A stretch of 8,467 bases of DNA from Thermoplasmata archaeon (lineage in GTDB: Archaea > Thermoplasmatota > Thermoplasmata > Thermoplasmatales > Thermoplasmataceae). The DNA is taken from NCBI GenBank assembly GCA_021845155.1, contig JAKBSB010000048.1:1-8467 (forward strand). Direction: 5' to 3'. The notes beneath the pieces were generated by a model, which made no database searches, was not told the origin of the DNA, and worked only from the letters and a program-made list of their open reading frames with translations. The position numbers and the translations under genes are program-made. This document shows positions 1 to 4,616 of the stretch, in pieces. The first letter of the stretch is position 1; each line of letters opens with the position of its first letter.

Positions 1-393
1 TATTGCAGTTATGACCTCATCGTCCGAATAGAGTCTTTCAATTGTTTTGTATGACACATCAATCCCGGAAATCATGGAGAATATGTCAAGCATGTTTGCG
101 AACATCCTGTTTGATTCTCCAACAAGTTGCTTGATCAATAACAGCTTGACCCTCTGCTCTATGGTAAGTGAATGAGGATGCCCAGGGCCATGTACAATCC
201 GCATTATGGATACCGCTTCGTTTACAAGGGGATCAAGATCCTTCATGGCCATCTTTATTCTTCTGGAGAACTCCTGTTCATATGTTCTCCAGTCCCTCTC
301 CTTTTTAGGATGTTCCAGCCTGTATTTCTTCCCGATGGTACTGTTGATCTCCTCAAGTTTGTATTGAATGTCATCGCTCCTGATCAGACCCAT
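1..393 (-). CDS. Transposase, N-terminal part (partial, continues beyond left edge)
   Basis: An open reading frame starts at an ATG (391-393) and runs 131 codons without a stop to position 1, so the 3' part is missing from the window. The product begins MGLIRSDDIQ and is rich in charged helices. It contains the segments HPHSLTIEQRVKLLL (residues 72-86) and DVSYKTIERLYSDDEV (112-127). I recall this kind of N-terminal helical region from DDE transposases of Thermoplasmatales insertion sequences, but the catalytic Asp-Asp-Glu residues would lie in the missing part. The divergent DUF2080-type gene next to it supports the call. A TATA-like box lies about 29 bp ahead of the ATG, which suggests a leaderless mRNA and supports the start. 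Family-level assignment (IS4, IS5, ISNCY and so on) is uncertain. Confidence 0.6.
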   Translation of the reverse strand, partial: MGLIRSDDIQYKLEEINSTIGKKYRLEHPKKERDWRTYEQEFSRRIKMAMKDLDPLVNEAVSIMRIVHGPGHPHSLTIEQRVKLLLIKQLVGESNRMFANMLDIFSMISGIDVSYKTIERLYSDDEVITAI

Positions 394-416
394 ATGAAAT
401 CTTCATGATCTCTTCT

Positions 417-427
417 TTTATAAATAC
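417..427 (-). promoter_or_regulatory. TATA box of the transposase gene
   Basis: On the minus strand this reads TATTTATAAAA. Its centre is about 29 bp ahead of the transposase ATG at 393, the spacing expected when transcription starts at or within a few bases of the start codon in archaea. Confidence 0.6.
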
Positions 428-445
428 GTCTATAGACATGTTTAT
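420..445. promoter_or_regulatory. Imperfect palindrome between divergent promoters (possible operator)
   Basis: The centre is a perfect 10-bp palindrome, GTCTATAGAC (428-437). Extending outward, 11 of the 13 base pairs of the 26-bp segment are self-complementary. The symmetry axis falls between the transposase TATA box and the TATA-like box of the divergent small gene, so a dimeric protein bound here would sit on both promoters. The role as an operator is inference. Confidence 0.4.
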
Positions 446-448
446 TAT
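438..448 (+). promoter_or_regulatory. TATA-like box of the DUF2080-type gene
   Basis: The stretch ATGTTTATTAT lies about 26 bp ahead of the GTG start at 469. No Shine-Dalgarno sequence lies between them, so a leaderless transcript is likely. It overlaps the right arm of the palindrome. Confidence 0.4.
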
Positions 449-468
449 GATCTATTAACTTACCATAT

Positions 469-654
469 GTGAGCAGGAAGGTATTCGTCCTTGACAACAA
501 ACTGACAATAACAGATGATGAGATAGAGGGTATACTGGAAAGGACTGTGACAAAGCAGGGGACATCAGCCAAGGCTGATGTGCCAAGGAGATACCTTGGG
601 AAGAGGGTTTACGTCATAATTACGAAGTCAGAAGGGGAAGCGGATCGGGAATAG
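469..654 (+). CDS. DUF2080-type transposon-associated small protein
   Basis: The gene encodes 61 residues from a GTG start. The C-terminal half, around VTKQGTSAKADVPRRYLGK, follows the pattern hydrophobic-K-x-G-x-S-A-x-hydrophobic-P-x-x-hydrophobic-G-K-x-V-x-V-I. I recognise this pattern from DUF2080 proteins, which are encoded beside transposases in many archaea, and it resembles a swapped-hairpin AbrB-like DNA-binding fold. The N-terminal part (residues 6-28) looks like one beta strand followed by an acidic helix. The protein could help transposition or regulate the transposase promoter it shares. An ATG two bases upstream (467) is out of frame. The GTG start is chosen because it opens this conserved-looking frame and has a TATA-like box at the right distance. 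The exact function of the family is not established. Confidence 0.72.
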   Translation: MSRKVFVLDNKLTITDDEIEGILERTVTKQGTSAKADVPRRYLGKRVYVIITKSEGEADRE

Positions 655-957
655 TGTCCCACACTCTGGATTTACAGAAATGCTATGTATTAAGCAGTTC
701 TTACGAGTGCTCATCCACTCTTCAACTGAATAAGTAAATTGTAAAATTAGATCTTGAGAATCAGATAAAAGAGCAATATAGACTGCATTTATTAAACAAA
801 GGAGTTTTTCTATGGAAATTATATAAGTCCAAAGGTGATCATATTTGCATTGTCATGAACACAAAAAAATACTAGCTTTGACGAATCTAAATAAATACGA
901 AAATTGAAATTACAAAAAAAATAAAAATTAAAAATTTGATTTGATACGTTTCTGCAC
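655..957. other. Non-coding interval between the IS end and the surface-protein operon
   Basis: No credible gene is visible on either strand; frames are broken by frequent stops. The right part (about 862-937) is strongly A-rich on the plus strand and carries the terminator of the minus-strand operon. At 798-804 a sequence AAAGGAG is followed by ATG at 812, but that frame closes after four codons. The terminus of the insertion sequence probably lies within the first few tens of bases. Confidence 0.6.
914..937 (-). terminator. Oligo-T terminator of the surface-protein operon
   Basis: On the minus strand, 20 to 45 bases after the TAA stop at 958-960, the transcript would run through several T tracts, including T8 (914-921) and two T5 runs, without a strong stem-loop. 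This is the usual form of an intrinsic archaeal terminator. A further T7 run lies at 863-869. Confidence 0.6.
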
Positions 958-3423
958 TTATGGTTGGATAGTGGCATCATATACAACAAACTGACCAGCA
1001 ATGAAATCATAGTCAGGCGGTATGTTGAAGTCGTACATGGTGAAGTACCCATGGGTCACTGTTATGCTTGTGATCTGTACGAATGATCTAGTGAATGCAT
1101 TATACATCATGTCCCTTATTGTCAAATTCTGTGCCGTCACATACCCATGGTTTGTAAGTATGGGCTGATATCCAGAAACATTCAGCATGCCATTGATGTC
1201 GTACTGCCTGTGGAGATGCGTTATGTACAGATCTTTGACCTTCTCCGCATGGTATGAATGAGTGGTGAGATTGTAAGTCATAACATATGATCCAACAATG
1301 TTCAGATCCTGTGCCTTTGTGTACGTTCCATTGGCAAGGAGGATTTCGGTTGTGCCGTTAACGCAACCTGTACCGCCTCCGCCTCCACCACCGCCACTTG
1401 GTGGACTTATGACCTCTGAAAGTGAGAATGTTGTGGATACGCTTCCTCCTGTTGATACTGTTCCACCTGATGGATTTGCTGAATACACATCTGTGTCACC
1501 GTTGGACATCTTTACATCCACGTTTGGGATGCTGTATGAGTACGAGCCGTCTGGAACACCGGATATGCTTATGCTGCTTCCGGAACTGCTTCCTGAGTAC
1601 GAACCTGCGTTTGCCGTCCATGAAGCCCCCGTGGGCAGTCCAGATTCATGGAATGTTATGGTTCCGGTTCCAGTAAATTTTATATTTTGAGATATGGACT
1701 GATCAGTTACAGTGATTGTTCCGCTTTTTGGGGATATATCATATCCTGATAATGACCCAACAACATAGTTGTATGTACCCATATGTTCGGAGAAAGATAT
1801 GACTGATGATGTGCTGGTTTCAGATGTTCCGTTAAGGGATACAGACCAGGAAGTTCCGGAAGAAAGACCTGTTTCCTGGAAGGTAATAGGATAATTTGCA
1901 TACGAAATGGTGAAGTTCTGATAGGAAACTCCAAGATAGTTTCCAACGACAGCGTAAGTGTTGGATGTTGTGTATCCTGATTCTACAGAATAGAGAGAGT
2001 ATGTGGATGTGTTTCCTATGCTTGCACGGTAATTTCCGTTGGAATTAGTATATACTGTTTCTGAACTACCTGCACTGTTCTCCACAATAATAGCCGCATG
2101 ACTGAGCGAACCGGAAGGTCCATCAACGTGTCCTTCTATTATACCACCTACGTTCAATGTCTCATACTCAAGTCCTCCTGGACTTCCAGTTGTGAAATTT
2201 AGGCTGTTCCGTGACAATTCTGGATGGTATAGGGAAGTTCCATTTGATGGTGAGTTGTATGTGGCATAAAGAGTGTAATCTGTCTCAGGCTGAGCAAAGA
2301 ACCTGTAGTTTCCCGCACTGTTAGTCATGACTTTGTAGCTTGCTCCAGTGTGATCGTCAACCAGGTAAACATAATGATTGGCATCTGGTATTGAGTGTCC
2401 CGAACCGAGATATACCGTACCTGATATCTCTGATGCAGGAACTGCTTGAATCTGTTCACTCAGGTGAATGGCCGTGCCATCTGAGTTGTATCCTGCTGCT
2501 TCGTAATTGGTTCCCATGTAGCTTGTTGCATTGATTGTATATGTAACAGGAGTTGCAAATTGGGATGGATAAATATTCAAATACAAAGGAACGCCTGAAC
2601 CAAATACGTCATTGAAGAACGTATTATTCCCTGAACCTGCCAGACTCCCGTTTGTTACTGCAAAATATTCATAACCCGTGCCATTTCCATTGAATGAGGA
2701 CACCATTGTGGGTGAGTGTCCGGTTGATGCACCGTATATCGTGTAAGCAGCACTTCCTGCAGCAATTGCATAGCCCACATAGGGAACGCCGGCAATGGAT
2801 GTCAGAACCCCCAATCCGTCCAGTGCCAGGGAAACCAGAGTTTCACGATATTTGGCGGAATTAATATCCAATGGTCCAGTGGTGTTGAAACCACTTCCGT
2901 ATTGATAACGTAGGGTTGTGTAGAGATCACCGGCATTGGATGAATTTATATAAGGACTTGATGTGTGAATTGAGAGGTTTACATTATTAATGACGGAGGT
3001 GGATCTACTTGAGTTTCTGAAAGCACCCATAAAAGCAATGGGAATATCCACCAGAAAATATTTTGCTCCGGAAAGATAACTTACTTGCTCTGTATTTCCC
3101 CCTGCAACCAAGTAAAGTGAGTTTGGCGTCCCATATGTGTTATTCTGTGAGGTCTGATATCCGGATACATATTCTTCCCTAAAATTCTGAGCTGCCCTGC
3201 TGTAGTTCACACCTGAGACATTTGTGTCATCGGTGTATTTTGTCATATACACTGTACTGTTTCCGTCGTATCCTTCCCAGGAATGTGCATTCTGCTCCAC
3301 GGAAGAATATATGTTTAATGATGGTGTTGATGCATAGGAAACGGGGATAATTGAAAGAGCAGATAATCCTATGATAACAGCCAGGGCAAATGCCACTGTC
3401 CGTGCTTTCGAATGGTTATACAT
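958..3423 (-). CDS. Secreted surface protein with C-terminal Hint (hedgehog/intein) domain
   Basis: The 821-residue product has a Sec-type signal peptide (1-31, likely cut after VSYA). An unrecognised region follows (32-330), with a Gly/Ala-rich hydrophobic stretch at about 195-231. Next are two beta-sandwich segments resembling carboxypeptidase-regulatory-like domains (about 331-390 and 427-485). Then come two FxExGLxxGxSW repeats (511-585 and 586-670), a Pro-Pro-Ser-Gly8 linker (674-684) and a Hint domain (687-816) with a 5-residue tail. I count 22 N-x-S/T sequons, which fits a glycosylated exterior protein, and a single cysteine, C687, at Hint position 1. The ATG is preceded at 10 nt by AGGAGGT, which lies inside the end of the upstream gene; only 4 nt separate the two genes, so translation is probably coupled. 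The function is unknown. The Hint domain may cut the chain after G686, join it to another molecule, or be inactive. Confidence 0.85.
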   Translation of the reverse strand: MYNHSKARTVAFALAVIIGLSALSIIPVSYASTPSLNIYSSVEQNAHSWEGYDGNSTVYMTKYTDDTNVSGVNYSRAAQNFREEYVSGYQTSQNNTYGTPNSLYLVAGGNTEQVSYLSGAKYFLVDIPIAFMGAFRNSSRSTSVINNVNLSIHTSSPYINSSNAGDLYTTLRYQYGSGFNTTGPLDINSAKYRETLVSLALDGLGVLTSIAGVPYVGYAIAAGSAAYTIYGASTGHSPTMVSSFNGNGTGYEYFAVTNGSLAGSGNNTFFNDVFGSGVPLYLNIYPSQFATPVTYTINATSYMGTNYEAAGYNSDGTAIHLSEQIQAVPASEISGTVYLGSGHSIPDANHYVYLVDDHTGASYKVMTNSAGNYRFFAQPETDYTLYATYNSPSNGTSLYHPELSRNSLNFTTGSPGGLEYETLNVGGIIEGHVDGPSGSLSHAAIIVENSAGSSETVYTNSNGNYRASIGNTSTYSLYSVESGYTTSNTYAVVGNYLGVSYQNFTISYANYPITFQETGLSSGTSWSVSLNGTSETSTSSVISFSEHMGTYNYVVGSLSGYDISPKSGTITVTDQSISQNIKFTGTGTITFHESGLPTGASWTANAGSYSGSSSGSSISISGVPDGSYSYSIPNVDVKMSNGDTDVYSANPSGGTVSTGGSVSTTFSLSEVISPPSGGGGGGGGTGCVNGTTEILLANGTYTKAQDLNIVGSYVMTYNLTTHSYHAEKVKDLYITHLHRQYDINGMLNVSGYQPILTNHGYVTAQNLTIRDMMYNAFTRSFVQITSITVTHGYFTMYDFNIPPDYDFIAGQFVVYDATIQP
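976..1365 (-). other. Hint domain (intein/hedgehog-type autoprocessing fold), atypical
   Basis: Residues 687-816 match the order of intein splicing blocks. The block A-like start is CVNGTTEILLANG (C687). The block B-like segment is LNVSGYQPILTNHGYV (747-762), where the usual TxxH becomes S750-x-x-Q753. The following AQNLTIRDMM matches the common A-x-x-L-x-x-G-D segment. The block F/G-like end is YDFNIPPDYDFIAGQFVVYD (797-816), where the usual terminal His-Asn is Tyr815-Asp816, followed by Ala817 instead of Cys/Ser/Thr. There is no room for a homing endonuclease. About 130 residues is typical of hedgehog Hint and bacterial intein-like domains. Standard splicing is unlikely. N-terminal cleavage through a thioester at C687 remains chemically possible, but activity is not shown by sequence. 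Confidence 0.75.
1414..1893 (-). repeat. Two tandem FxExGLxxGxSW surface-protein repeats
   Basis: Residues 511-585 and 586-670 are two copies of one domain. Each starts with a strand and the signature FQETGLSSGTSWSV (515-528) or FHESGLPTGASWTA (591-604), and each ends with a Ser/Thr-rich strand. These repeats are common in exported proteins of acidophilic archaea, including thermopsin-like proteases, where they form stalk-like beta domains. The second copy is longer and more serine/glycine rich. DNA identity between copies is low, so the duplication is old. Confidence 0.65.
2731..2841 (-). other. Gly/Ala-rich hydrophobic hairpin segment within the surface protein
   Basis: Residues 195-231 include LDGLGVLTSIAGVPYVGYAI followed by an alanine- and glycine-rich run (AAGSAAYTIYG). 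Two uncharged helices joined by a Gly-Val-Pro-Tyr turn are possible. Such a stretch is unusual inside an otherwise polar beta-rich exported protein. It may be a buried helical hairpin or a membrane-interacting segment; the sequence alone does not decide. Confidence 0.35.
3331..3423 (-). other. Signal peptide coding segment of the Hint surface protein
   Basis: Residues 1-31 show a basic N-region (HSKAR), a hydrophobic core (VAFALAVIIGL, residues 10-20) and a plausible cleavage site after VSYA before STPS. No second membrane anchor is obvious at the C-terminus, so the protein is expected to be released, or retained through a partner or chemical attachment. Confidence 0.75.
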
Positions 3424-3427
3424 AAGG

Positions 3428-4198
3428 CTAAAGACCTCCTGTTACGTTGTCAACAGCCTTTATGTCCACAGAGTTGTAAACAAGGCTTGAATAACCTGTT
3501 AGAGTTACATTTGTAATGAAACAGAATGGACTTGGAGCAATTGAAAGTCTGGTGGGGGTGACCCTTAGAAGATCAATAAATTTCAAATAAAAGTGATATC
3601 GTCCACTGAAGTTCTGTGACTCTGGTTTCTCATTAATAAACGTTGCATGTCCATTATAGCTGAAATTACCCAAGTTACAATAATCCTCAAATTGGGGGGC
3701 GTTACCGACAGGATTAGTTATAGTTAAAGAAGTGTTTCCCTTGTTGTTTACATCGTTGGAAGAACGTAGGTTAAATCCAATATTTTTTCCATGGAGACCG
3801 GGTGAGTAAAAATTCTCTCCCCTGAAAGAAATGATCATTCCTTGTGGCAATGTGTTCGTTGAAAAATTTCCCGTGAAAGTTACATAGTAATAAACTTCGT
3901 AGACACAAGGCCCATAATTTTCAAACATACGCAGTTTAGTTGAGAGTGTTGACTGGTTGATTCCTCCCTCGTCAACGTATGTAGTGCTGTTAAAGTATCG
4001 GCAATTTGGATTGAAATAATTACCAGTATTACTGGAGATCTTGAAATCCACGGAGTATGTGTAACCTGTAGAGCTATTCACAGAATCAACCTTAATATAA
4101 TGCTGATCAAAGAATTCGAAGAAACCAAAAGGCACTATGATTACAGCTGCAATTATAACAGCCGCAATTGGTATAATGATCTTGTTTCTCTTTTTCAT
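3428..4198 (-). CDS. Membrane-anchored glycoprotein, partner of the Hint surface protein
   Basis: The 256-residue product begins MKKRNK and has one N-terminal transmembrane segment (about 7-26), then a polar extracytoplasmic domain. I count nine N-x-S/T sequons (N41, 70, 81, 111, 155, 178, 196, 230, 251) and four cysteines (66, 98, 174, 226) that could form two disulfides. The pattern of short strands suggests a beta-rich fold; I recognise no family. The frame extends upstream to an ATG at 4270, but those 24 extra residues would place a charged, Cys-containing leader before the membrane segment. The ATG at 4198 gives a normal KKR-positive start and has a TATA-like box at the right distance. 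Only 4 nt separate its stop from the surface-protein start, so the two are almost certainly made together. A role as membrane anchor, assembly factor or substrate for the Hint protein is inference. Confidence 0.78.
   Translation of the reverse strand: MKKRNKIIIPIAAVIIAAVIIVPFGFFEFFDQHYIKVDSVNSSTGYTYSVDFKISSNTGNYFNPNCRYFNSTTYVDEGGINQSTLSTKLRMFENYGPCVYEVYYYVTFTGNFSTNTLPQGMIISFRGENFYSPGLHGKNIGFNLRSSNDVNNKGNTSLTITNPVGNAPQFEDYCNLGNFSYNGHATFINEKPESQNFSGRYHFYLKFIDLLRVTPTRLSIAPSPFCFITNVTLTGYSSLVYNSVDIKAVDNVTGGL
3434..3440 (-). promoter_or_regulatory. Ribosome binding site of the Hint surface protein
   Basis: AGGAGGT on the minus strand, 10 nt before the ATG at 3423, is a near-perfect match to the archaeal anti-Shine-Dalgarno. 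It lies within the last codons (Gly-Gly-Leu) of the upstream gene, so the downstream start depends on an SD within the operon, whereas first genes here look leaderless. Confidence 0.8.
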
Positions 4199-4221
4199 AA
4201 AAATATCAATCCATAAAAATA

Positions 4222-4231
4222 CATTAATTTT
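4222..4231 (-). promoter_or_regulatory. TATA-like box of the two-gene surface operon
   Basis: The minus strand reads AAAAATTAAT, centred about 29 bp ahead of the ATG at 4198 and preceded by TTTTAG. This fits a leaderless archaeal start at 4198 rather than at 4270. The match is A/T rich and not strongly diagnostic. Confidence 0.4.
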
Positions 4232-4343
4232 TCTAAAACACCCATGGGAGTCACAGAATCCTCGGTCCATTTTTTAGCATTGTTCGTTCTTGAACCTGAA
4301 GAGTTTGTATTTCTACCATGATTTAGTTACTTCCAGATGAAAA

Positions 4344-4351
4344 GCTTTATT
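4344..4351 (+). promoter_or_regulatory. TATA-like box for the gene at 4375
   Basis: GCTTTATT, preceded by a purine-rich GATGAAAA element, is centred about 27 bp before the ATG at 4375. This is the spacing of a leaderless archaeal transcript and supports that ATG as a genuine start even though the reading frame later breaks. Confidence 0.5.
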
Positions 4352-4374
4352 CATGGGATCAACACATATAATCA

Positions 4375-4616
4375 ATGAACAACGTAGTGAATTACAGTCT
4401 GCATGAAGCATATTCGTCAATGAAGAGCATAGATAAACTTGCAAAGAACTATCCCAGGATAGACCAGGAATCGTTGAGACTCATAGTAAAGAAACTTTTC
4501 AGGAATGATACTGGAAAAGGTGAAAGACAAACGTTGATGAAACTGCAACGATCAAGACACTGTTCCTTCAGATCATGTACAATCTATTGGATGAATCCAT
4601 GGAGAGGGAACCATGA
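4375..4616 (+). pseudogene. Small helical protein gene, apparently frameshifted
   Basis: From the ATG the frame encodes about 50 plausible residues (MNNVVNYSLHEAY to NDTGKGE, helical and basic). The same frame then turns into a Cys/Trp/His-rich tail with unlikely composition, ending at 4677. A shift of -1 near 4521-4526 (in GGTGAAAGA) instead continues as KTNVDETATIKTLFLQIMYN and ends EREP at a TGA (4614-4616), giving an ordinary helical protein of about 81 residues. In that frame the stop overlaps the next ATG as ATGA, as in a real operon. Explanations, in order: a disrupted gene, a sequencing error, or programmed -1 frameshifting; the shift site lacks a classic heptamer. A short helical protein coupled to a second gene resembles toxin-antitoxin or regulator pairs, but I recognise no family. 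Confidence 0.55.

Follow-up and report, generated by a model that had tools for sequence, protein, structure and literature searches.

A conserved archaeal Hint tail with a position-1 nucleophile and a glutamine for the block-B histidine: a possible device for attaching secreted proteins to the cell surface

What is a Hint domain for at the very end of an archaeal protein that lacks a splicing end? In animals, some Hint domains are known to attach secreted proteins covalently. The domain considered here closes an 821-residue protein encoded in an 8,467-nucleotide stretch of a Thermoplasmata archaeon (contig JAKBSB010000048.1, hereafter the window). The initial annotation placed it at 958–1371, which corresponds to residues 685–821 and the stop codon, and proposed a hedgehog-like release or attachment. 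The features of the locus are collected in Table 1.

Table 1. Features of the Hint gene and of its upstream neighbour in the window
Feature	Positions	Strand	Basis or remark
Gene for Hint-tailed, putatively secreted protein, 821 aa	958..3423	(-)	ORF translation
Signal-peptide-like stretch, aa 1-31	3331..3423	(-)	hydrophobic start, by eye in sequence
N-terminal passenger domain, aa 36-330, GYxGNxTxYM-type motif	2434..3318	(-)	alignment and genome search
CarboxypepD_reg domain, aa 333-391	2251..2427	(-)	PF13620, E 5.7e-12 (whole protein)
Two FxESGL-type repeats and the stretch behind them, aa 513-676	1396..1887	(-)	motif starts at aa 513 and 589
Gly-rich linker GGGGGGGGTG, aa 677-686	1366..1395	(-)	sequence
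Hint domain, C687 to D816	976..1365	(-)	predicted structure and profile comparison
C687, position 1 nucleophile	1363..1365	(-)	model residue 9 on intein residue 1; family alignment
Block B S750-G-Y-Q753, replacing T-x-x-H	1165..1176	(-)	alignment
D798, block F position 4	1030..1032	(-)	alignment
Y815-D816, replacing terminal His-Asn	976..981	(-)	structure match, alignment, sequence
Five-residue tail ATIQP	961..975	(-)	sequence
Partner gene, 256 aa, one N-terminal hydrophobic (TM-like) helix	3428..4198	(-)	4 nt upstream of Hint gene

Judging by its N-terminus, the window protein is probably secreted, and its passenger domain (aa 36–330) was found by alignment and genome search to be common to other loci. 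A MAG contig titled 'Thermoplasmata archaeon' (L001) is 99.2% identical to window positions 1–4596 and encodes a linker two Gly shorter. C687 is indeed the lone cysteine of the 821 residues in the ORF translation; as a general feature this did not stand, since just 6 of 18 homologues have a single Cys and the remaining ones have 2 to 19. Homologous passengers with 14–19 cysteines occur in P0007, P0009, P0011, P0012 and P0017, and others have only the Cys of position 1. Q753, Y815, D816 and A817 were found in the sequence as described, and the block-B identities follow from alignment to the DnaX intein.

Near the downstream side of the Hint gene, a transposase-like ORF lies at 1–393 (-); L034 has a longer form of it, also downstream of its Hint gene. 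A DUF2080 transposon-encoded protein is located just downstream of the Hint gene in the window, at 469–654 (+). Another contig of the same MAG (L035, contig 89 of G001) carries a broken Hint copy at 106–380, its pieces lying in different frames and containing stops. P0002 is identical to the window protein (P0001) over the last 194 residues (aa 628–821; window 961–1542) and differs in its N-terminal part. P0005 corresponds to window residues 1–702 with two differences and has a different Hint remainder. Among P0001/P0005 and P0002/P0008, two passengers and two tails are present in all four combinations. Such a tail swap between passengers looks like recombination, and the shared 49–75 aa stretch could also give assembly chimeras; the exchange was kept out of the evidence.

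The domain profile built from 13 domains matches the Spl DnaX mini-intein (7cfv) with E 7.3e-6, and hhalign against a canonical Hint alignment gave a probability of 97.7 and E 1.5e-12. A Foldseek search of the PDB with the predicted model returned 58 matches at E ≤ 0.001, and all 50 matches listed of these are intein, BIL or hedgehog domains. In the predicted model, the window domain adopts the horseshoe Hint fold, and its C687 coincides with intein residue 1. Profile, hhalign and Foldseek agree on the claimed Hint fold at the protein end, and on these profiles and this model the Hint reading is more than chance. Searched as single sequences, the window protein and its 137-aa domain matched no Hint family of Pfam at E ≤ 1, and NCBIfam gave only intein_Nterm, sub-threshold with 14.8 bits vs a cut-off of 24.5. 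PHROGs contained no match for the window protein, the Hint domain or the partner, and no relative was found in viral contigs with the sequence patterns used. In the alignment to the DnaX intein (7cfv), S750 falls on Thr B:7 and Q753 on His B:10 (block names after the accessible part of PMC4031507).

Position 1 is Cys in all 18 homologues, B:10 is Gln in 16 and Glu in two, and the proteins stop a few residues past the Hint domain. On a broader scale, 97 distinct domains were aligned, five of which were set aside as canonical; of the 92 left in the family, eight were dropped as at least 90% identical, which gave 84 non-redundant domains. The residue at B:10 is Gln in 80 of them, Glu in three and Lys in one (a fragment), and at position 1 there are 76 Cys, four Ser, one Tyr and three gaps; Gln and Cys are possibly over-represented in these counts, since the collecting profile was built from window-type domains, yet five His-type domains were found with it. 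The gaps comprise two fragments and one true loss (P0027). Position 1 is missing in P0026 and P0027 and is a Tyr in P0037, the remainder of the domain being intact in all three. Free variation of C687, named beforehand as the outcome that would count against the proposal, was not seen: Cys or Ser is present in 80 of the 82 non-redundant sequences covering the position, and the four window-type members without Cys have Ser, which is also a usable nucleophile. Asp occupies F:4 in 72 of 82 sequences covering it, and position −1 is Gly in 66 of the 84 domains.

Ranked by entropy among 129 columns, Gln B:10 is second, C1 third and Asp F:4 eleventh; G:6 and G:7, at the splice end, come at 74 and 116. 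The suggested joint conservation of C687, Q753, Y815 and D816 applies to position 1 and Gln B:10, and G:6 and G:7 are poorly conserved. The residues of the first chemical step appear in this alignment to be kept and those of the splice end lost, and Gln at B:10 is apparently a conserved family signature, not an accidental loss. According to the accessible text of PMC4031507, His B:10 ranks first in conservation among intein residues and only two inteins lack it, of which one is a pseudogene; an engineered case is reported in which bulk at −1 offset the loss of this His (PMC6333167, in the portion available). The dN/dS values were 0.034–0.114 in the six closest domain pairs (75–97% identity) and 0.094–0.202 in five more distant pairs, the other 14 being saturated. 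Conservation and dN/dS together rule out the random decay of a Hint domain.

Measured against class 1 inteins, the window domain has the Cys/Ser of position 1 and lacks His B:10, the terminal His-Asn and the +1 Cys/Ser/Thr (Y815-D816-A817). The inteins TvoVMA (4o1s), Spl DnaX (7cfv) and Ssp DnaB (1mi8) share the fold, with blocks A, B and F in order, but here the C-extein consists of only five residues, and the +1 nucleophile, the terminal Asn and His B:10 are missing. Canonical splicing had been called unlikely, and it is rejected here on the short end of the window protein and the poor conservation of the splice-end residues.

Among 400 genomes of the class to which G001 belongs, the domain profile matches 44 at E ≤ 0.001, a figure that includes canonical cases (inteins in L053 and L055, a BIL-type pair in L044). 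This rules out a single odd protein, and the claim is broadened to what appears from the alignments to be a conserved archaeal Hint family. A second family group has the pattern CVLxGT...DQPxY...YIANGxLxDxK and includes Thermoplasma sp. Kam2015, whose protein is named 'Hint domain-containing' in one source. The archaeal Hint domain is already partly annotated; a literature search of titles found no paper on this archaeal Hint family. Unrelated secreted proteins end in the domain, namely the thermopsin P0051, the kumamolisin-type P0019 and CarboxypepD_reg proteins. At least four Gly are present among the 12 residues ahead of position 1 in 45 of 50 proteins scored, the window protein included (P0026, P0027 and P0037 were unscored, and P0007 was cut at the wrong Cys). 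As far as sequence and predicted model go, the domain is a distinct type of archaeal Hint tail, which keeps Cys/Ser1, Gln B:10 and the block-F Asp and has no splice end.

No TM helix was found in the last 80 residues of any of 102 Hint proteins, a set that contains duplicates and some truncated genes, and all of them except L094 end no more than 178 residues past the domain start. Thermopsins of the class end in a TM helix with a mostly basic tail in 17 of 20 cases, these 20 being part of the search matches and chosen before their ends were seen. Since thermopsins have TM ends and the Hint proteins have no C-terminal TM helix, the Hint tail occupies the anchor site of other secreted proteins in the class; it may therefore attach secreted proteins to the cell surface, and may do so by unfamiliar chemistry. 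No archaeosortase-family match was found in any of the 20 Hint genomes searched, and the control gave a match in 3 of 14 named genomes. Relatives of the window-type passenger that have no Hint domain (L120–L125) end behind the CarboxypepD-like stretch and have no C-terminal TM helix either. They give no support to the replacement of an anchor by Hint in this passenger, an idea that instead draws its support from the thermopsin comparison. In L120–L125, at least one single-TM gene comes after the Hint-less passenger gene; the last 50 residues of passenger and TM protein are the same in L121 and L123, suggesting, on this sequence likeness, a duplication or gene conversion of the C-terminal domain.

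The start of the partner gene at 4198 was picked by comparison with L034, the ORF being open to 4270. Of the 16 window-type loci, 14 have a partner homologue upstream, and in the other two the contig ends first. In 32 other loci, a member of the partner family was found in eight; in seven of these it is no more than 530 nt away on the same strand, on either side of the Hint gene, and 25 of the 32 have no adjacent partner of this family. When all 61 Hint matches and the 68 partner rows with E below 1e-8 were counted, weaker rows being left out, 20 of the 61 Hint matches had a partner match within 6 kb vs 0.87 expected at random positions, and 46 of the 68 partner matches were not near a Hint match. 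So many orphan copies mean that the partner can also occur with no Hint gene next to it. Twenty thermopsin stretches contained no partner or Hint match, a weak control with little sequence upstream of the gene. The search for partner homologues returned only five proteins, and the structure model, built with six sequences, has a pLDDT of 38. In L060 (2493–5860), a single Hint gene has three consecutive partner-family genes upstream of it. Some members of the CVAxG subgroup have as their downstream neighbour a hydrophobic, multi-TM-like protein of 88–102 aa (L047 2297–3607, L054 1994–2437, L086 6863–8137), possibly another type of partner.

The best-supported reading, favoured tentatively, is an acyl shift at G686–C687 followed by transfer of the passenger to a membrane acceptor. 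After secretion, an N-S (or N-O) acyl shift would convert the G686–C687 peptide bond to a (thio)ester. This would pass to a membrane acceptor, which may be the single-TM partner encoded alongside or a hydroxyl group of a lipid or glycan; the C-terminal Gly of the passenger would end up attached, and the Hint domain would be left behind. The observed basis consists of the predicted fold, residue conservation, C-terminal position, lack of a C-terminal TM helix and gene pairing. We infer from it that the shift happens, that an acceptor exists and what this acceptor may be. The initial interpretation is borne out in part: the fold, the catalytic positions and the improbability of splicing are supported, and its hedgehog-like idea gains from the lack of a C-terminal TM anchor in Hint proteins and from the many pairings with a TM partner. 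The placement of C687 on intein residue 1, the column ranks, the Ser substitutes, the low dN/dS, the varied passengers, the missing TM ends, the partner pairing and the absence of archaeosortase matches all point to passenger transfer, if short of making it probable. Against it, His B:10 is gone and, with Gly at −1, the compensating bulk is absent; nothing behind the Hint domain is able to recognise an adduct; P0026, P0027 and P0037 have no Cys/Ser nucleophile; 25 of the 32 non-window-type loci have no adjacent partner and 46 of 68 partners are orphans; and the Hint-less passengers of L120–L125 also lack a C-terminal TM helix.

The main rival to passenger transfer is a Hint fold that is catalytically dead and retained for docking; it would bind the TM partner or another surface component non-covalently, its pocket residues serving binding or stability. 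This possibility, doubtful as it is, has real weight: Gln replaces the key His in 80 of 84 domains and the splice end is lost, a TM partner is co-encoded, purifying selection would be equally expected and the same three proteins manage without Cys/Ser at position 1. However, it is hard to see why a dead domain would keep a Cys/Ser of rank 3 (of 129) behind a flexible Gly linker together with a block-F Asp. The same residue evidence would also suit a shift followed by hydrolysis of the thioester, the tail then serving for the timed release of the passenger from the membrane or a secretion complex. Some passengers are of the secreted-protease type, where release or activation would be useful, but the thermopsins of the class are mostly membrane-anchored (17/20), the TM partner argues for retention and the tail has no membrane segment to be freed from; timed release is unlikely.

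The conserved Gln signature may also leave room for readings that are not hedgehog-like. By analogy with Gram-positive thioester adhesins, C687 (or Ser) and the Q753 side chain could form an internal (thio)ester, a reactive or stabilising cross-link within the Hint scaffold. At the known catalytic positions of Hint domains, no polar residues are better conserved than Cys/Ser, Gln and Asp (ranks 3, 2 and 11 of 129), and Cys-Gln thioesters of surface proteins are described in the accessible part of PMC4450167, as are related ester cross-links in that of PMC12679949. Glu, however, replaces Gln in 3 of 84 domains with Cys kept, which speaks against a general rule, and the fold match is to Hint, with no thioester domain among the Foldseek matches listed; such a bond is very unlikely. 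It is just as improbable that the Hint fold serves as a surface-protein warhead, its Cys1/Ser1-Gln internal (thio)ester capturing an acceptor on its own membrane partner or another surface. If true, a Cys-Gln warhead would be a third Hint chemistry beside splicing and hedgehog-type ligation.

Compared with known systems, the domain resembles hedgehog Hog in being a C-terminal Hint with a position-1 Cys in a probably secreted protein. Unlike Hog, it is archaeal, has Gln for the block-B His and often has a TM partner gene; moreover, only ATIQP follows D816, with no sterol recognition region as defined in the available text of PMC2362128. A-type BIL domains end in His-Asn according to the part of PMC7765530 at hand, whereas here the end is Tyr-Asp or variable and His B:10 is Gln. 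Gram-positive thioester domains likewise combine a conserved Cys and Gln in a surface protein (PMC4450167, same part), but the predicted fold here is Hint and the thioester is only a hypothesis. In the archaeosortase/PGF-CTERM system, a C-terminal module on unrelated surface proteins leads to membrane attachment. The Hint tail is also a C-terminal module of unrelated surface proteins, but has no TM tail and no separate sortase.

An archaeal Hint family of this kind would offer a natural system for an N-S acyl shift without the histidine. A conserved archaeal tail that combines a position-1 nucleophile, Gln instead of the most conserved intein residue and no end for splicing would suggest that prokaryotes have such a means to end or anchor their surface proteins.
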